NCBI RefSeq assembly: GCF_014306625.1
Contig: NZ_JACRYL010000008.1
Coordinates: 165,415 to 229,414 of the forward strand
Length of the DNA stretch: 64,000 nt
Origin: Pedobacter fastidiosus
Lineage (GTDB): Bacteria > Bacteroidota > Bacteroidia > Sphingobacteriales > Sphingobacteriaceae
Direction: 5' to 3'
This document shows, piece by piece, positions 26,600 through 64,000 of this stretch. The notes under the pieces were generated by a model, which saw only the letters and a program-made list of their open reading frames with translations, was not told where the DNA came from and did not search any database. The first letter of the stretch is position 1, and every line of letters starts with the position of its first letter. A program made the position numbers and the translations under genes.

Positions 26600-26647
26600 C
26601 TATTCAACAGGCCTTTATTGATGCTTATCAATAGGATGAGCTCTACC

Positions 26648-34927: not shown

Positions 34928-35635
34928 TTAGCGGTAATTTGATCTGATAATCAGTTTTTCAATATTCTTGATCCAGATTTTCCTACCCTCGGTATAGATG
35001 ATATCCTCAGACTTTAATTCTTTCAGTAGCCGGATTACATTTTCTTTCGCCAGCCCTGCAAGGTTGGCGAGATCATTTCTGGAGATGTTGATGAGGATCT
35101 CACCCTGCTCATTAAGATCCTGTTTATATTTTTCCCTGAGAAAAATTAGTGCTATTGCAAGCCTTTCAATCGCCGAGCGCTGCGAAAAAACAGAGATGCT
35201 GTTCGCCAGCACGGTAAACTCGTGGCTGAGCGCCTTTAACATCCGTGAGGTGAGCAGTGGCGAGTTTCCCAAAACCTGAAGAAAATCCTCTTTGGGTATG
35301 AAGCTCAATATACTCTCCTCTATTGCCGCCGCAGAATCCGGGTAGCGCTCTTCCGAAAGTACTGCGTGGTAACCGATAAACTCGCCCTGGTTTGCCACAT
35401 AGATAATCTGTTCCCTACCAAGGTGGTCAACCTTGTATTTTTTTATCTTGCCCTTATGGATGAAATATATTCCCGAGGGCACGACTCCTTCCCTGAAGAT
35501 GACCTCTCCCATCGTATATTTCTGGGCAGGCTGATCGGAGATCAGAAATTTATATTCCTCCTCGGTCAGCACATTCAATATGGAGTGTGTACTAAAATTC
35601 CATTTATCGATGGGAAAAATTCCGGATAGGCTCAT
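34928..35635 (-). CDS. Crp/Fnr-family transcriptional regulator without Fe-S cysteines
   Basis: 235 residues: cyclic-nucleotide-binding-like jelly roll (about 20-140, GEVIFREGVVPSGIYFIHKG), dimer helix, and winged HTH (ISRNDLANLAGLAKENVIRLL). There is no cysteine at all, so it cannot carry the [4Fe-4S] cluster of true FNR. It could respond to another ligand or redox signal by a different mechanism. Its position among icd, fumC/sdh, acetate kinase and a FixL-like kinase makes it the natural candidate regulator of the block. Palindromes such as 58555-58574 are possible operators, though none is proven. The minus-strand leader contains TACCTTTA, close to the TAnnTTTG promoter element. Confidence 0.94.
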   Translation of the reverse strand: MSLSGIFPIDKWNFSTHSILNVLTEEEYKFLISDQPAQKYTMGEVIFREGVVPSGIYFIHKGKIKKYKVDHLGREQIIYVANQGEFIGYHAVLSEERYPDSAAAIEESILSFIPKEDFLQVLGNSPLLTSRMLKALSHEFTVLANSISVFSQRSAIERLAIALIFLREKYKQDLNEQGEILINISRNDLANLAGLAKENVIRLLKELKSEDIIYTEGRKIWIKNIEKLIIRSNYR

Positions 35636-50956: not shown

Positions 50957-52390
50957 CTATTTAATCGTTCCGATCATATCCTCAGGCCGTACCCATTCAT
51001 CAAACTGCTCATTCGTAACCAGCCCAAGCGCTATGGCAGATTCCCTCAGCGATTTGTTATCCTTTAGGGCTGCTTTAGCAATCCTGGCAGAATTATCATA
51101 ACCAATATGGGGATTCAGGGCTGTTACCAGCATGAGTGACGTTTCGAGGTGTTTTTTAATACCGTCATAATTGGGCTCAATGCCTAAGGCGCAGTGTTCA
51201 TTAAATGAACAACAGGCATCGCCGATCAATCTTGCTGACTGCAGAAAGTTAGCGGCCATTACGGGCTTAAATACATTGAGCTGAAACTGTCCGTTTGATC
51301 CTGCAACGGTAATCGCCACATCATTACCCATCACCTGCGCAGCAACCATGGTTACTGCTTCATTTTGGGTCGGGTTTACTTTGCCGGGCATGATGGATGA
51401 GCCTGGTTCGTTTTCGGGTAGGTGTAATTCCCCAATACTGCATCTAGGCCCTGAGGCCAGCATGCGGATATTGTTGGCAATGTGCATAAGGGAAACTGCA
51501 ATCTGTTTTAGTGCGCCATGGCTTTCCACTACGGCATCATGAGCAGACAGTGCCTCAAATTTATTGTCCGCCGTACGGAAAGGTAGACCGGTAAAATCTG
51601 CAATGTATTTTGCAACGGCAACATCATATCCCTTTGGTGTATTCATGCCCGTACCAACTGCTGTTCCGCCAAGTGCCAGTTCAGAAAGGTGATCCAATGT
51701 ATGTCGCAGGGCCTTTAACCCATGGTCCAGCTGTGATACATAACCTGATATTTCCTGTCCGAGGGTTAAGGGTGTTGCATCCATTAAATGGGTACGGCCA
51801 ATCTTAACCACATTTGTGAAGTTTTCTGATTTTATCCTTAAGGTATCCCTAAGTTTTTCAATACCGGGAATAGTGATATCCACCAATATCTTATAGGCTG
51901 CAATGTGCATAGCCGTTGGAAAAGTGTCGTTTGAAGACTGTGATTTGTTTACATCATCATTTGGGTGAACATACAGTTTACCCTCACCCATTTCATTGCC
52001 CTGCAGCACATGGATCCGGTTAGAGATGACTTCGTTTGCATTCATATTCGACTGGGTTCCTGACCCGGTCTGCCAGATCACCAACGGGAATTCCCCGAAA
52101 AGCTTTCCATCTATGATCTCATCACATACCTTTGCGATAAGGTCCCTTTTATCTGTGGGAAGAACATTGAGATCTTTATTTGCATAGGCGGCAGCTTTCT
52201 TCAGGAAGCCAAAAGCCTCAATAATCTCTTCGGGCATGGATGCCTTCGGGCCGATCTTAAAGTTGTTTCTTGAGCGCTCGGTCTGCGCTCCCCAATAGCG
52301 GTTTCTTGGTACCTGAACATCGCCCATACTGTCGTGTTCGGTTCTTGATACGGATAGACCTGTGTTATTTATTTCTTTTAAGATAGACAT
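50957..52390 (-). CDS. fumC: Class II fumarate hydratase
   Basis: 477 residues, reversible hydration of fumarate to malate. The iron-free class II type is shown by [47 protein letters not shown] and the signature [16 protein letters not shown] containing the catalytic Ser. First gene of the probable operon fumC-porin-DASS-sdhCAB-DUF6544-DUF1275. Being iron-free it would stay active under oxidative stress. The divergent spacer to the tautomerase gene is about 165 bp. Confidence 0.97.
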
Positions 52391-52501
52391 ATATGCTTCG
52401 TTTAGGATATGCAGTAAAGGTGCACAAGGTTAGCTGGCTCAGCCATGACCGCAATCAAGAGATAAGATGATGTGAATCAGCCGAAATCACATACAAATAA
52501 G

Positions 52502-52512: not shown

Positions 52513-52556
52513 TATGGGATAACCAATTCCGGTCTATGCCTACAAAAAAACATGCT

Positions 52557-52952
52557 ATGCCCTATCTTCAGTTGGAAGTCATCAGAAACTACCCTTACGC
52601 TACTAAAAAATTATTGGCAAAAAGAATCGGAGAAACTTATTCAAAGATTATGAAAGCAGATCAAAACCGCATAACGGTAAGCATCCGTGAGCTTGGCGAA
52701 GGCTCCATTTGGCGTTGTGGCGATGAGGAACCCATGCCGGCAGCCATTATGATGTGCGATATCCGAAAAGGAAGGGATGCGCATCTCAGAATAGCACTTT
52801 CTAAAGCGCTTATTGAAATGTGCAATGAGGTGCTTGGACTGGAAACAGGCCAGCTAAACATCGAATTTACTCAGCATAGTGGCGATGAAATGTACCACCA
52901 GCGCTTGGGAAGTTTTAGTGCCGATTGGACTGCTAACGAGGGATCTTTATAA
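52557..52952 (+). CDS. Tautomerase-superfamily protein
   Basis: 131 residues from ATG 52557. The second codon is Pro (MPYLQLEVI), giving the N-terminal proline that is the catalytic base in 4-oxalocrotonate tautomerase/MIF-type enzymes after Met removal; starting at 52536 would bury it. Then YPYATKKLLAKRIGETYSKIM and RITVSIRELGEG, and a longer C-terminus than the 60-residue 4-OT type, like the double-length trimeric members. Substrate unknown. Divergent from fumC. Confidence 0.85.
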   Translation: MPYLQLEVIRNYPYATKKLLAKRIGETYSKIMKADQNRITVSIRELGEGSIWRCGDEEPMPAAIMMCDIRKGRDAHLRIALSKALIEMCNEVLGLETGQLNIEFTQHSGDEMYHQRLGSFSADWTANEGSL

Positions 52953-55079: not shown

Positions 55080-55910
55080 TTAAGATGGAAAGATGAGCAG
55101 CGGAACGGGCTTGTACAGCGCACATTTATCTTTAAAATATTGTTTGGTTAGGGTATTGAAATGAAAATGCTGGTTTACCAGAACCAATAGATCAGCCTGC
55201 ATACCGCTTACCAAGATTTCGAGGGTATTCTGTTTATCGTTCTTATCTAGCATATTGAGGAACAGCTTTTTGTAACCTACATTAAGGCTTACTTCTTGGT
55301 TAAAAATGTTCTCCGCCTCTTGCTCCTCTATTTCAGGCAGCCCACTTGCTGAAGTGTGTGCAATAACAAGATTTGCCTTCCAGCATCCTGCAAGATCCGC
55401 AAGAAACCGCACGGTCTCGATTCCGCAGAAACGCAGATCGGTTAAATAAACCAGTCGCCTGAATTCATTTTCCTGCCATGAGGATGGAACAAGCAATAAG
55501 GGAACCTGAAGTTTGTTTAACAGGGTGTTAATGGCTAGGTTTACATTGAGGAGTGCCTGTGGCAGAAACTCATCCATTCCTTTAACAACCATATAAATAT
55601 CATTTCTCGAGGCCAACAGAAATAGATCTTCCCTATCATTATCAAGCCCAACCTCTTGGATTAGTGGGCTGAAACCGGGATGCAGTTTTTTGCGCCAGAG
55701 CAATTTTTTCATCAAAGGGGTATGAATCAGTTCTGCGATGGTTTCATCATGAGAACACCCCGCCCACTCGTAATTCTGCGAATCAAGTTTCGGCTCCGTA
55801 CTGCTGGCGAGTATGATATTAGCACCTATTCTCTGAGCGAGTACAAGCGCAAAATCGGCCGCATGTTCTGCTTCCTGTGTATGATCGTTGATGATGAGTA
55901 TTGTTTTCAT
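55080..55910 (-). CDS. Tandem universal stress protein
   Basis: 276 residues made of two UspA-like halves (about 1-140 and 150-276). Half one begins MKTILIINDHTQEAEHAADFAL; half two begins RRLVYLTDLRFCGIETVRFLADLA. The ATP-binding G-x2-G-x9-G-S/T motif is not clear in either half, so it may not bind ATP. The paralogue at 57626-58501 is better conserved. Cytoplasmic stress and dormancy factor by family. Confidence 0.88.
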   Translation of the reverse strand: MKTILIINDHTQEAEHAADFALVLAQRIGANIILASSTEPKLDSQNYEWAGCSHDETIAELIHTPLMKKLLWRKKLHPGFSPLIQEVGLDNDREDLFLLASRNDIYMVVKGMDEFLPQALLNVNLAINTLLNKLQVPLLLVPSSWQENEFRRLVYLTDLRFCGIETVRFLADLAGCWKANLVIAHTSASGLPEIEEQEAENIFNQEVSLNVGYKKLFLNMLDKNDKQNTLEILVSGMQADLLVLVNQHFHFNTLTKQYFKDKCALYKPVPLLIFPS

Positions 55911-56084
55911 TTGGATTATTGTTTAAGCATGCTGCTGACCATAAATATCGGCATAGCGCTAAGGAAACCAAATGATGGCAATCATCTTGTAGATTGTTTA
56001 TCATCACCAATTAAAATCGAATCTGGAGCGTATATATTGATTACCCACATGTAGATAGAGGCTTCCAACCCACAACTTCAAGTA

Positions 56085-57249: not shown

Positions 57250-57498
57250 TTAGCCTACCTCACTATTATCTAGAAGTAAGCCCATTTCGCTTACCACCCA
57301 CTCAGAGAGACTATCGCCGTGGTTTCTGCTTAAGGCGGCAACTTTTTTGAAAATGGTTGCCCTTTCCAAAAAATCCTTATTTTTCCAGATCCGGAATTTT
57401 TCCTCTATTCTTGAAAGTTGCCGCAGGTAATCTGACTCGTGCAGGTTGCCGGCATCTTGAATATGTTGTTCTATTTGAAGGGCAGTATATAAATCCAT
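57250..57498 (-). pseudogene. Fragment resembling the N-terminal part of an aldehyde dehydrogenase
   Basis: 82 codons from ATG 57498 (open further to 57585). The stretch KDFLERATIFKKVAAL ... SLSEWVVSEMGLLLDNSEVG matches by pattern the segment before the Rossmann core of succinate-semialdehyde-type aldehyde dehydrogenases (ERAxxLRKxAxLL ... LAxLxTxEMGKPxxEAxxEV). The gene then stops; the cofactor and catalytic parts are absent and I saw no continuation before the SHOCT gene. It could be a decayed ALDH gene or a small protein that evolved from one. Confidence 0.5.
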
Positions 57499-57625
57499 TT
57501 TCTGATTTTTATGATATTGTAAATATCGCCTTAAACATCTGCCTGGGTAATGATGCCGGTCATCACTGATGAAGACACTCATCACATTAAACCAACTACC
57601 TGCGCTTAAGGCTTTTAAATCTACT

Positions 57626-58501
57626 TTATGCGATGTGCTCAGCTACCGAATTGGCCTTGAAGATCAGCATTGGGAAATTCAGATCTTTTGCCAGTTTTTC
57701 TGTCAGACTTCCTTTTAAAAGACTAGCCAGAAAACTTTTCTCACGATGAACCATAACCAGGAGATCCGTTGGTGCGTGAGACATCAACTTGTCAAGACCC
57801 TCTATTGCCTTATCCGCATTGATCCTGATGAAATGGATGCCGGGATAGCCGAGATCGCTACTAAAATCAAGAACCATTGCTTTTGTTTTTGCTGAGATAT
57901 CCCTTGCTACGGTTTTAGGGGTCGAGATGTGGGCGATAAAAATTTCCGCCCTAAATGCGCTTGCCAATGGGATCAGCTGTTTTAAAAAAACAATGTCCCC
58001 ATGAGGATCGCTGAGATCAGAAGCAAAATAAATATTTTTGAACGGAGCAATCTTCACTTTTGAGGGGACGAGTAAAAGTGGTACCCCTAAAGATTCAATC
58101 ATGTTGCGTGTATGGTTTCCAAGCAAAAAGCTTCCAAACCCACCTCCATGTGTTCCCATAACCACAAAGTCTATTAACTCATCGGCAATCAGTCCACCTA
58201 CTACATCCTGAAGATAGCCGGACTGGTTCATGATACCGATCTGCGGTTTTTTATCATGTGTGGGATTTGCTTTTGTGAGGTGCTCCCTTAATTTTTCAAG
58301 CTCGCTCGTACTGGCTTCTTCCAAAACATTAGACTCTTCCATTGGCCATACCACAAGTCCGGCTTGGGGCATCTCGGCAGGCACAATTACGGCGTTGCAG
58401 AGAATAATATCTGCGTTAATTTTTTTGGCAAGCGAATAGGCATATTCTGCAGCATGTTTAGCGTGCGAGGAGAAATCGGTAAGTACCAATAAATTTTTCA
58501 T
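57626..58501 (-). CDS. Tandem universal stress protein
   Basis: 291 residues, two UspA halves. Half one shows MKNLLVLTDFSSHAKHAAEYAY and the ATP-type motif VMGTHGGGFGSFLLGNHT with following VPLLLVPSK. Half two shows IYFASDLSDPHGD and LLVMVHREKSFLASLLKGS. The first half thus probably binds ATP. A perfect 20-bp palindrome lies about 55 bp upstream. Divides two P-type ATPase/acetate-kinase genes from the BON-SHOCT cluster; all point the same way. Confidence 0.93.
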   Translation of the reverse strand: MKNLLVLTDFSSHAKHAAEYAYSLAKKINADIILCNAVIVPAEMPQAGLVVWPMEESNVLEEASTSELEKLREHLTKANPTHDKKPQIGIMNQSGYLQDVVGGLIADELIDFVVMGTHGGGFGSFLLGNHTRNMIESLGVPLLLVPSKVKIAPFKNIYFASDLSDPHGDIVFLKQLIPLASAFRAEIFIAHISTPKTVARDISAKTKAMVLDFSSDLGYPGIHFIRINADKAIEGLDKLMSHAPTDLLVMVHREKSFLASLLKGSLTEKLAKDLNFPMLIFKANSVAEHIA

Positions 58502-58574: not shown

Positions 58575-58628
58575 GCCGTGATAGTGGTCACCTTTGCAAA
58601 TGTTTATCATCAGTAAAACCCTTTTTAA

Positions 58629-61354: not shown

Positions 61355-62602
61355 CTATACTTTTTCGGTCTTGGCATGCAGAGCAGATGCCAGTTTGTTT
61401 TCATTGTCAGGTAATAAAAAATTTCGTGTATGCATTGCAATCATAGATTCCTCACTGGTTTTCATTACACGGATGCAAACCTTACTGCTTTGGCTGGAGA
61501 TGACTTTCTCAGAACGCAGGTTAAGACAGCGGTCTATTTTAAGCCCCATGAAATCCATTTCAGCACAGATCCGTTCCCTGACCTCAGGAGAATTTTCCCC
61601 AATGCCACCTGTGAAGATGAGCATATCAATGCCTCCGAGCGAAGCCGCAAGCGAAGCAATAAATTTCTTAGCCTGATGACAATAAAGGGTTAATGCGGCT
61701 TCCGCTTTTTTGTCATCACAAAGGCTATTTAGAATCTCCTCCATATCACCCGTTCCCGAAATAGCCTTGAGTCCTGATTCATGGCTGAGCTCTACATCAA
61801 GTTCTTCAGGGGTAATATCATTCTGCTTAAGCATAAACAGCACAGCACCTGGATCAAGATCACCACAGCGCGTAGCCATTACCAGCCCTCCTATCGGGCT
61901 AACGCCCATAGTTGTGTCAAAGCCTTTTCCCAATGAAACGGCAGCCATGCTGGAGCCATTTCCGAGATGGGCGATAACAATTTTTTTCTGATCGATAAAT
62001 GCATGTTGCTTATCGAGTTTTTGCATGATATATTCATAAGACAGTCCGTGAAATCCATATCTCATCAAACCCTGTTCAGCATACTTAGCAGGCAGCGGGT
62101 AATATTTATTACAATCGGGCATATCCCGGTGAAAGTTGGTATCAAAGCACGCCACATGCAGTAGGTAGGAAAATTCCAGCATGAATGCATTAATAAGACT
62201 GAGTTCGTCAGGCAGGTGATTGGGGGCTAAAAAGATGAGTTCTTTTAAATCCTCCAGTAATTTTTCTGTAATGATTTCAGGTCTTCTGTGCACTGCTCCT
62301 CCCTGTACCAAACGGTAACCAATGGCAGAGATCAGGCAGTGCTTTTTATTTTCCCTGAGCCACCGGATTATTGCTACGGAAGCATCCTCAATATTTCGGT
62401 AATGTTCTTTTTTTAAGGCGATAGAATCCCCGTAGCTATCGGTTAAATCCATAGTCCCGATCGGCTTACCTATCCCCTTTATCACTCCCGACCATTGCCT
62501 GTGCCCAGTCGTCTGGTGATAAACCGCAAATTTCAGGCTTGATGAGCCCGAATTGAGCACCAATATAAAATGCTCCCCGGATAATTGTAAGGTCTTGTCC
62601 AT
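61355..62602 (-). CDS. ackA: Acetate kinase
   Basis: 415 residues from ATG 62602. ASKHA-fold motifs: LVLNSGSSSLKFAVY at the N-terminus, MRYGFHGLSYEY, IAHLGNGSSMAAV, TTMGVSPIGGLVMATRCGDLDPG and LIFTGGIGENSPEVR. Makes ATP from acetyl phosphate. No phosphotransacetylase gene is beside it, so its partner is elsewhere; pairing with the ATPase downstream may tie pump energy to acetate flux. A strong Bacteroidota-type promoter lies 57-86 bp upstream. Confidence 0.95.
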   Translation of the reverse strand: MDKTLQLSGEHFILVLNSGSSSLKFAVYHQTTGHRQWSGVIKGIGKPIGTMDLTDSYGDSIALKKEHYRNIEDASVAIIRWLRENKKHCLISAIGYRLVQGGAVHRRPEIITEKLLEDLKELIFLAPNHLPDELSLINAFMLEFSYLLHVACFDTNFHRDMPDCNKYYPLPAKYAEQGLMRYGFHGLSYEYIMQKLDKQHAFIDQKKIVIAHLGNGSSMAAVSLGKGFDTTMGVSPIGGLVMATRCGDLDPGAVLFMLKQNDITPEELDVELSHESGLKAISGTGDMEEILNSLCDDKKAEAALTLYCHQAKKFIASLAASLGGIDMLIFTGGIGENSPEVRERICAEMDFMGLKIDRCLNLRSEKVISSQSSKVCIRVMKTSEESMIAMHTRNFLLPDNENKLASALHAKTEKV

Positions 62603-62658
62603 AGTTCTCCCTTTTAACGTTAGCAAACCTGAATTGATCCATTAACATCCCACTAGAA

Positions 62659-62688
62659 CAAAGGTACCTCCGGCAGGAGTCGCCCAAA
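62659..62688 (-). promoter_or_regulatory. Bacteroidota-type promoter of the ackA-ATPase operon
   Basis: Minus strand has TTTG (62688-62685), an 18-bp spacer, then TACCTTTG (62666-62659), matching the known TTTG/TAnnTTTG consensus. Predicted start of transcription is near 62652, about 50 nt before the acetate kinase ATG. Confidence 0.7.
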
Positions 62689-62743
62689 ATGACCTCGCCC
62701 CAAGCGAATAATGATAGCCATCACAGATAAGCGGATAATTGTA

Positions 62744-62874: not shown

Positions 62875-64000
62875 ATGGAAAATACCGTATTGCTGAAAGC
62901 AATCATTGAAAATGCAATAGACGGCCTGATTACCATAGATGACCGTGGGATTATTGAATCCATTAATCCATCTGCATGTAAGCTTTTTCATTATTCTCAG
63001 GAGGAGGTTGTTGGCCAGAATATATCCATGTTGATGCCGCAGCCAGACCGGGCCCGGCATGACGGCTATCTTTTTCAGTACAAAAAAACAGGAAATGCCA
63101 GTATCATTGGTATTGGCAGAGAATTAGTAGGACTTAAGAAAAACGGAAGTCAGTTTCCCTTCCGGCTTGGTGTAAGCGAGGTAAAATATTCCGGAAGAAT
63201 TATCTATGCAGGCTTTATACATGATCTGACAAGGGAAAAGGAAGCTGAAGGAAAATTACAAGATTATGCAGCTTTACTGGAAGAACAGGTGGAGGAAAGA
63301 ACACATTCACTCAGAACGAGTGTAAAAGCCCTGCAAAAAACCCAGGATGATTTAAATCTTTCACTTAACAAAGAAAAAGAACTTGGCCAGCTTAAAAGCA
63401 GGTTTGTATCCATTGCATCACATGAATTCCGTACCCCCTTGAGCATGGTACAACTTTCAGCATCGCTTATTGACCGATATGCAGAAAACCAGGATAGGGA
63501 GAGCATCGGTAAACACGTTGTTAAAATCAAAGATGCGGTACTGAATATTACGGCCATACTCAATGATTTTCTTTCGCTCGAAAAACTCGATTCGGGAATG
63601 GTAAAACCAAAGCTTAGCCACTTCAACCTCTCCGAAATGGCCGAAGAGATTACCGGCGAAATGCAGATTACGCTGAAAGGAAAACAGAAGATAATTTTCA
63701 AGCATAGGGGACCTGGCCTAATGATCAACCTGGATCAGAACCTGCTTAAAAACTGCATCGTAATCCTCATCGATAATGCCATCAAATATTCAGGAGAGGA
63801 GAGCGAAATCCAGTTTTATACCAAGATCAATGAAAACAACTTCTCCATTAGGATCTGCGACAATGGCATCGGTATTCCGGATACGGATCATAAACATCTC
63901 TTTGAGGCATTTTTTAGGGCACATAATACAGGCAATATTTCCGGAAACGGCCTCGGGTTAAGTATACTTTCCAGATATACTGGTCTGATGAATGGGAAGG
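62875..64000 (+). CDS. FixL-like PAS sensor histidine kinase (runs off the window)
   Basis: First 375 codons; the 3' end lies outside. A single PAS domain (about 5-120) has DGLITIDDRGIIESINPSA, MLMPQPDRARHDGYL and SIIGIGRELVG. His62 (ARHDGYL) and Arg82 (IGIGR) align with the heme-ligand His and O2-sensing Arg of FixL (known for that family). A coiled coil (130-170), HisKA ASHEFRTPLS (His183) and HATPase with N-box DNAIKYSG and DNGIGIP, then NGLGLS, complete a soluble kinase. No membrane helix, so cytoplasmic. It is divergent from ackA and is probably the oxygen sensor of the block; heme binding is inferred, not shown. Confidence 0.93.
   Translation, partial: MENTVLLKAIIENAIDGLITIDDRGIIESINPSACKLFHYSQEEVVGQNISMLMPQPDRARHDGYLFQYKKTGNASIIGIGRELVGLKKNGSQFPFRLGVSEVKYSGRIIYAGFIHDLTREKEAEGKLQDYAALLEEQVEERTHSLRTSVKALQKTQDDLNLSLNKEKELGQLKSRFVSIASHEFRTPLSMVQLSASLIDRYAENQDRESIGKHVVKIKDAVLNITAILNDFLSLEKLDSGMVKPKLSHFNLSEMAEEITGEMQITLKGKQKIIFKHRGPGLMINLDQNLLKNCIVILIDNAIKYSGEESEIQFYTKINENNFSIRICDNGIGIPDTDHKHLFEAFFRAHNTGNISGNGLGLSILSRYTGLMNGK

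Follow-up and report, generated by a model that had tools for sequence, protein, structure and literature searches.

The best-known role of FixL, in rhizobia and their relatives, is to head a chain of three steps. In the FixL-FixJ-FixK2 chain of Bradyrhizobium and Sinorhizobium, a FixL-type heme-PAS kinase stands at the head and an FNR-family output at the end. In mycobacteria, the heme sensor kinases DosS and DosT act with DosR over low-oxygen genes that are rich in universal stress proteins, with a GAF sensor and a NarL-type output. In the FixK2-NnrR network, ccoN and hemN are among the genes with a listed FNR-type box (PMC6710368). A rewired FixL circuit without FixJ has been described in Rhizobium, where a hybrid kinase (hFixL) acts through FxkR on a separate FixKf gene; the same study traces the FixK of Alphaproteobacteria to an FnrN whose Fe-S cluster was lost and which came under FixLJ (PMC4999443).

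The locus described here lies at the end of a 64,000-nucleotide stretch (the window, C64:165415-229414 of a 5.27-Mb genome of 65 contigs), in another phylum, where a sensor of this type seems to head a circuit of two proteins. A gene for a FixL-type kinase is followed by a gene for a receiver fused to an FNR-like module (REC-CRP), and because of this fusion FixJ and FixK appear collapsed into one protein. Compared with FixL-FixJ-FixK2, there is no FixJ and one step fewer, the boxes are often paired 22 bp apart, and the predicted set includes ackA, fumC and stress-protein genes. Unlike hFixL-FxkR-FixKf, receiver and FNR-like output form one chain. REC-CRP resembles the Fe-S regulators FNR and FnrN in its DNA-binding half, its E-T-V-S-R helix and its FNR-like box, but it lacks their N-terminal cysteine cluster and has a receiver domain in its place; in this respect the history of FixK offers a parallel, except that here a receiver was fused instead. 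In contrast to DosS/DosT-DosR, the pair combines a PAS sensor with a CRP/FNR output. We consider it fairly probable that the heme-PAS kinase phosphorylates an FNR-like activator at low oxygen and that REC-CRP acts via paired boxes. Our literature search found no paper on a FixL-type kinase and REC-CRP pair in Bacteroidota, but novelty in print is not established, because the search was partial, with subscription journals mostly outside it.

Kinase gene and its setting

The kinase ORF is open at the window end (Table 1), and its whole length (L021:790-2007) encodes 405 aa. Pfam analysis reveals a single PAS domain (PF00989, residues 7-117), a HisKA domain (174-241) and a HATPase_c domain (287-395). 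As the PAS domain starts about 6 residues past Met1, no space appears to be left for a membrane segment in front of it. The earlier note, made from the window alone, had described a soluble single-PAS kinase divergent from ackA; the domain make-up suggests that the first part is right, and the position and strand of ackA confirm the second. Among the matches listed, the closest named relatives of the PAS domain are from Pedobacter species, with 95% identity in P. jejuensis. Against the NCBIfam equivalog for rhizobial FixL (NF041777), which at 485 positions is longer than the protein, the kinase scores 153 bits and does not reach the cut-off of 850.

A structure model of the kinase has a mean pLDDT of 78 but drops below 50 over the predicted heme helix (residues 59-64), and is therefore useless for the pocket. 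The model of REC-CRP has a mean pLDDT of 82 and a pTM of 0.41. Foldseek searches with the two models gave mostly kinases and CRP/FNR proteins and were no sharper than the sequence.

Table 1. Features of the kinase locus and of the predicted operators in the window.
Feature	Position	Strand	Evidence or remark
FixL-type PAS histidine kinase, aa 1-375 (whole protein 405 aa)	62875..64000	+	3' end at L021:2007, outside the window
PAS domain, residues 7-117, predicted heme-binding	62893..63225	+	PDB FixL match, E 5.1e-30; PF00989
His62 codon, predicted proximal heme ligand (BjFixL His200, SmFixL His194)	63058..63060	+	alignment to PDB FixL; PMC10765370
Arg82 codon, predicted ligand-contact Arg (BjFixL Arg220, SmFixL Arg214)	63118..63120	+	alignment to PDB FixL; PMC10765370
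His183 codon, predicted phospho-acceptor in SHEFRTPL	63421..63423	+	HisKA match; invariant in 15/15 FixL-type kinases
ackA, acetate kinase, divergent from kinase, predicted target	61355..62626	-	TIGR00016 above cut-off; operator and -7 element
FNR-like box ATGATAGCCATCAC between ackA and kinase	62711..62724		score 16.3
Degenerate second box, 22 bp nearer ackA, weak	62690..62701	-	3/8 positions off; half-site GGTCA kept
-7 element TACCTTTG, predicted ackA promoter	62659..62666	-	offset 51 from box centre
Paired operator, 1 mismatch, before Usp gene 57626-58501 (-)	58579..58612		C64:223993; Usp by Pfam
Paired-operator match, 1 mismatch, inside 5' end of ORF 57250-57585, may be chance	57551..57584		C64:222965
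Paired operator, 1 mismatch, before Usp-like gene 55080-55910 (-)	55973..56006		C64:221387
Perfect paired operator (0 mismatches) between fumC (50957-52390, -) and tautomerase-like gene (52536-52952, +)	52446..52479		C64:217860

Heme pocket of the PAS domain

In a phmmer search of the PDB, FixL chains came out on top (1dp6, E 5.1e-30, query residues 7-130). The alignment is gap-free and pairs His62 with the FixL His and Arg82 with the Arg of GIGR, which bears out, at the level of an alignment, the claim of the earlier note that these are the heme and O2-contact positions of FixL. According to a study of SmFixL, His194 is the ligand, Ile209, Ile210, Leu230 and Val232 are distal residues, and Arg214 is located at the bound ligand (PMC10765370). 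The window kinase is identical at all six positions (H62, I77, I78, R82, L98 and V100), and the hydrophobic distal pocket of FixL kinases (Ile, Ile, Leu, Val/Ile) is present as I77, I78, L98 and V100. By sequence, the window kinase has a FixL-type heme pocket and is predicted to bind heme.

A FixL-type PAS scan of genome_contigs (84,980 species) gave at least 520 confirmed relatives, of which the best 80 were analysed. Among these best 80 of at least 520, H62 and R82 are present in 80/80 each, I77 in 79, I78 in 78 and L98 in 79, and position 100 is V in 66, I in 9 and L in 5. There are 21 PF00989 matches in the genome, and the H, I, I and R columns are found only in the window kinase and its paralogue. 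As none of the other 19 domains carries this set (0/19, in an alignment that is rough for such distant PAS domains), the set is not due to chance.

The propionate Arg (SmR200/BjR206) is replaced by Gln68 in the window kinase, and is an Arg in 65 of the best 80 of at least 520 relatives. The Soret band of SmFixL is at about 395 nm in the oxidised and 418 nm in the oxy form; optical spectra of its R200 variants, including R200Q, stay similar, and the BjR206A variant weakens the inhibition of FixL by O2 (PMC10765370). The effect of BjR206A means that Gln68 weakens the case for the proposed oxygen circuit. Ligands of heme-PAS proteins differ between members, and this variability and Gln68 are both compatible with a PAS domain that binds heme but senses NO, CO or heme redox rather than O2. 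We regard such a ligand as improbable, since Arg82 and the Ile/Ile/Leu/Val distal wall are an exact match to SmFixL and the neighbouring hemN and cbb3 genes fit O2 limitation.

The His and Arg residues taken alone do not identify a heme domain. Kinases with a divergent PAS domain beside REC-CRP (27 alignable) keep the His at the FixL position in 27/27 and the Arg in 15/27; therefore, this pair of residues is not diagnostic, and we rejected it as proof of heme. In 21 of the 27, a polar or charged residue is present instead of the distal Ile. These kinases also bear on the possibility that the PAS domain of the window kinase has lost its heme, with His and Arg as inherited remnants, as may hold in divergent relatives. 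Retention of the His by divergent kinases beside the same regulator would be in line with such a loss, but most of them are without the distal Ile, and the FixL-type pocket is near-invariant in the best-80 loci, which makes heme loss in the window kinase very improbable. Looked at for themselves, the divergent kinases (L057-L096) keep the His at the FixL position and have a mostly polar distal residue.

The adjacent REC-CRP protein

The kinase gene shares its last 26 bp with the gene that follows it, L021:1982-3031, whose product consists of a receiver (REC), then cNMP_binding and then HTH_Crp_2 (Pfam). The earlier note had expected the cognate regulator just outside the window, and the protein encoded there is likely the cognate partner of the kinase. 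The FixJ type that the note had proposed for this regulator is not what the DNA past 64000 encodes; the domain order is that of a REC-CRP protein and not REC-LuxR/NarL, and FixJ was rejected as partner on this basis. The Crp/Fnr regulator to which the note had drawn attention exists as a free gene at 34928-35635, but it is not adjacent to the kinase and has no receiver, and we rejected it as partner as well.

The receiver contains D10, D53 and K105, which are invariant in 24/24 aligned sequences. The recognition helix of REC-CRP is E-T-V-S-R, which we take to resemble that of E. coli FNR. The N-terminal Cys cluster and the middle Cys of FNR were not found in the window-locus REC-CRP, where Cys is present only at 52, 233 and 310, and the Cys cluster was not found in the paralogue, where it is present only at 52, 205 and 290. 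The R-S-A motif, presumably the cAMP-contact residues of CRP, was not seen when the cNMP domain was read by eye only.

Distribution and gene order

In a survey of the phylum, REC-CRP had a match at 1e-35 in 62 of 296 genomes. Full-length REC-CRP is present at 48 places in 43 genomes of its own class, and the remaining matches cover mainly the receiver. All 48 loci were taken for the kinase survey. A kinase is located within 600 bp upstream on the same strand at 43 of the 48 places (with the window locus, L021, added by hand); no adjacent kinase was found at L062, L072, L075 and L078, and the kinase of L070 is on the opposite strand. The upstream kinases include 15 of the FixL type and 27 others that align to FixL at only 39-77 bits, while those of L070 and L084 gave no alignment to FixL.

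Approached from the kinase, the best 80 of at least 520 FixL-type loci are titled Pedobacter, Mucilaginibacter, Dyadobacter and relatives, or Bacteroidetes, and REC-CRP is the next gene in 77 of the 80. The other three are L135, in which the kinase ORF ends early and a REC-CRP piece follows, L137 and L140 (contig end); L137 has a short kinase ORF, and no REC-CRP was seen there. Raw counts within about 6 kb in the same best 80 loci, taken without a neighbour-frequency control, are 32/80 for hemN, 56/80 for 2-hydroxyacid dehydrogenase, 31/80 for any universal stress protein and 9/80 for ackA.

A second FixL-type kinase and REC-CRP pair is present in this genome on contig C20 (L022, G000:C20:13000-32500), and the two kinases are 57% identical. 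Its neighbours are a 2-hydroxyacid-dehydrogenase fragment, hemN, a heavy-metal ATPase and a fused ccoNO (cbb3 oxidase). The operon to which this pair presumably belongs has a strict box. A box with 1 mismatch is present at ccoNO and another at the dehydrogenase/hemN operon, and all three boxes have a -7 element at offset 51. The 2-hydroxyacid-dehydrogenase ORF (L022:7055-7483) looks truncated in this genome, as it encodes 142 aa and its relatives have 325-347 aa.

Box, pairing and predicted operators

In a scan of noncoding DNA of 46 loci for inverted repeats, with all 4-base half-sites and spacers of 0-10, TGAT-N4-ATCA leads the 2797 patterns, with 61 occurrences where 3.5 were expected. The genome itself has the pattern 9 times (0.4 expected), and it is sixth there by z, behind patterns with 1-2 sites; these own-genome sites belonged to the set from which the box was first listed. 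A pentamer scan of the own genome alone had too few sites. The stretch of the window from 50 to 64 kb contains 5 noncoding matches in 1284 noncoding bases, and eighteen other kinase loci of this genome contain none in 10978. The consensus of the FNR-like box is TGAY-N4-RTCA.

A box is present within 400 nt upstream of 66 of the best 80 of at least 520 FixL-type kinases (63 if only noncoding boxes are taken); the control figure, for unlabelled ORFs of these loci, is 18 of 118. The 14 kinases of the 80 that have none within this distance speak against our reading. A second box follows at exactly 22 bp 264 times, against 6-38 times at other distances (434 sites). TAnnTTTG, which we take to be the Bacteroidota -7 element, is present at offset 51 in 58 and at offset 29 in 16 of 237 promoter stretches, and in at most 2 at any other offset. 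These two offsets would therefore place the boxes near -63.5 and -41.5, the positions of an activator.

Pairing is not restricted to loci with heme-type sensors. Sites are paired in 194/262 cases in the best-80 loci, in 30/54 in other FixL-type loci including the window, and in 9/10 in FixL-type loci with another helix. They are also paired in 27/43 cases in REC-CRP loci with a divergent or no adjacent sensor outside one family, and on this count we rejected pairing as a mark of heme-type sensors only; it marks REC-CRP loci broadly, which slightly weakens our main reading. In that one family, which has divergent sensors, 1/65 sites are paired, and at hemN of genomes without REC-CRP 3/15.

When no more than 1 mismatch is allowed, the whole genome has 9 paired operators (control 0); with 2 mismatches the count is 25 (control 5). 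Seven of the 9 are located within C64:217860-247121, 29 kb around the pair. In addition to those in Table 1, this group includes one between Usp and L,D-transpeptidase genes and two between a BON gene and an AraC-type gene, and the predicted operators continue about 18 kb beyond the window end. The Usp-like gene of Table 1 is below the Usp cut-off (22.4 vs 24 bits) and is similar to the neighbouring Usp. The earlier note had supposed oxygen control of the whole metabolic block. The block has to be redrawn, and oxygen control of it is a prediction: there are predicted operators at fumC, Usp, Usp-like and ackA genes and past the window end, but no noncoding site with a score of at least 7 was found at the succinate dehydrogenase, Na/sulfate-symporter-type transporter and isocitrate dehydrogenase genes. 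Two observations go against our reading of these sites: the strong -7 element in the window is directed at ackA rather than at the kinase, and no TAnnTTTG is present at the expected offsets from the usp and fumC sites.

Past the window on C64, genes for phosphoketolase and then class I aldolase (L253:6642-10048) lie near ackA, several BON proteins and paired operators. Phosphoketolase, aldolase and acetate kinase together would suit substrate-level ATP formation at low oxygen.

Which protein reads the operator

Three genera contain genomes with and without REC-CRP. In these, 23 paired operators were counted over 6 genomes with a FixL-type pair (control 0), this genome contributing 9, and 4 over 12 genomes that lack REC-CRP (control 6). 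The outer base of the box follows the fourth residue of the recognition helix: with S it is G in 36% and C in 6%, and with I it is G in 8% and C in 32%. Within one family, the ratio of G to C is 15:2 or 4:42 depending on this helix residue, although site counts are not independent events and the significance of the contrast is overstated. In the best-80 loci, which all have the S helix, the outer base is G in 170 and C in 77 of 522, and this weaker contrast counts against REC-CRP as the reader.

The box itself is wider than the REC-CRP fusion, as hemN boxes and paired sites occur in genomes without REC-CRP. Where REC-CRP is absent from the genome, 12 of 15 hemN genes have a single box within 400 nt, and where it is present 8 of 16 do, which counts against our reading; a single box was accordingly rejected as proof of REC-CRP control. 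Five genomes without REC-CRP outside the three genera have 4, 3, 12, 3 and 5 paired operators (control 1, 0, 2, 0 and 0), and four of the five encode a free-standing FNR-like protein whose N terminus bears a cysteine cluster. Neither the box nor its pairing is exclusive to REC-CRP or to heme-type sensors.

These hemN boxes and paired operators outside REC-CRP genomes raise the possibility that the heme-sensor pair is real, but that the boxes are read mainly by a free Crp/Fnr protein (here possibly that of 34928-35635, which shares the E-x-x-x-R helix frame as ENVIR), with REC-CRP in control of few genes. However, paired operators track the FixL-type pair within the three genera and cluster at the kinase/REC-CRP locus, and within one family the outer base follows the helix residue of REC-CRP. 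Moreover, in three genomes with both hemN and REC-CRP-locus boxes, the hemN box is single at offset 29 and 8 of 20 REC-CRP-locus boxes are paired. Reading mainly by a free regulator is thus unlikely, though it deserves more weight than the other alternatives considered above.

Mutual exclusion of Fe-S-type FNR and REC-CRP is unsupported. A strict Cys pattern, applied to 43 rows, is present in 5 of 17 genomes without REC-CRP, in 1 of 15 with divergent sensors and in 0 of 7 with the FixL type; this pattern misses more widely spaced Cys, for example in the CxxC proteins of one family, and three of those proteins come from genomes with a FixL-type pair. Genome G194, which has an Fe-S-type FNR, has no paired operator.

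A possible oxygen switch and its origin

The cytosolic heme-PAS kinase and the downstream REC-FNR/FixK-like regulator without a cysteine cluster may together act as a single oxygen switch. By analogy with FixL, heme-bound O2 would keep the kinase off. When O2 falls, the kinase would phosphorylate the receiver of REC-CRP, whose FNR-like part would bind TGAY-N4-RTCA boxes, which often come in pairs with a spacing of 22 bp (about -63.5 and -41.5), and REC-CRP would activate promoters with the TAnnTTTG -7 element. Predicted targets are the second-copy operon, the cbb3 oxidase, the 2-hydroxyacid-dehydrogenase fragment with hemN, acetate kinase, fumarase and the stress-protein genes. The sequence itself shows the order of the genes, their domains, the residues of the pocket, and the operator with its spacing and clustering. 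The phosphotransfer, the reader of the operator and the direction of control are what we infer here, together with the binding of heme and O2. If true, this shows how an FNR-type oxygen regulator can become phosphorylation-controlled, and predicts a low-oxygen set (acetate kinase, fumarase, stress proteins, cbb3 oxidase and hemN) for soil Bacteroidota. The defined operator makes the circuit testable in culturable Pedobacter and Mucilaginibacter.

For the origin of the pair, trees were built from 47 of the 48 REC-CRP places (L077 left out), the second with 28 standalone rows selected by hand from 42. In the tree of the DNA-binding half, the 47 fused and the 28 free proteins lie on two sides of one branch with a support of 100/99, and a single fusion event is therefore possible. 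On the REC-CRP tree, the FixL-type sensors require two switches of sensor type; the base of this tree is unsure because of two long-branch rows. Our results suggest that a short oxygen-to-gene circuit replaces the longer FixL-FixJ-FixK chain in the Pedobacter group. The chances seem evenly balanced that, in a Bacteroidota lineage, an FNR-type regulator swapped its Fe-S sensor for a receiver under a FixL-type heme kinase and kept the FNR-like box, often paired at 22 bp, so that one protein does the work of FixJ and FixK, and that the sensor changed between heme-PAS and a probably non-heme PAS with the output unchanged.

Other sites and regulators

Two paired operators with 1 mismatch each are present at L254:6129-6277 (C29:10128-10276), near copper-type genes and a second acetate kinase. 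In the window, a single FNR-like box at 26618-26631 precedes a short-chain-dehydrogenase-like ORF; at the offsets where a -7 element would be expected there is none. At 314-25647 of the window, several histidine kinases in a row and two receiver regulators whose centre is AAA-type, all named by eye, lie among short-chain dehydrogenases.
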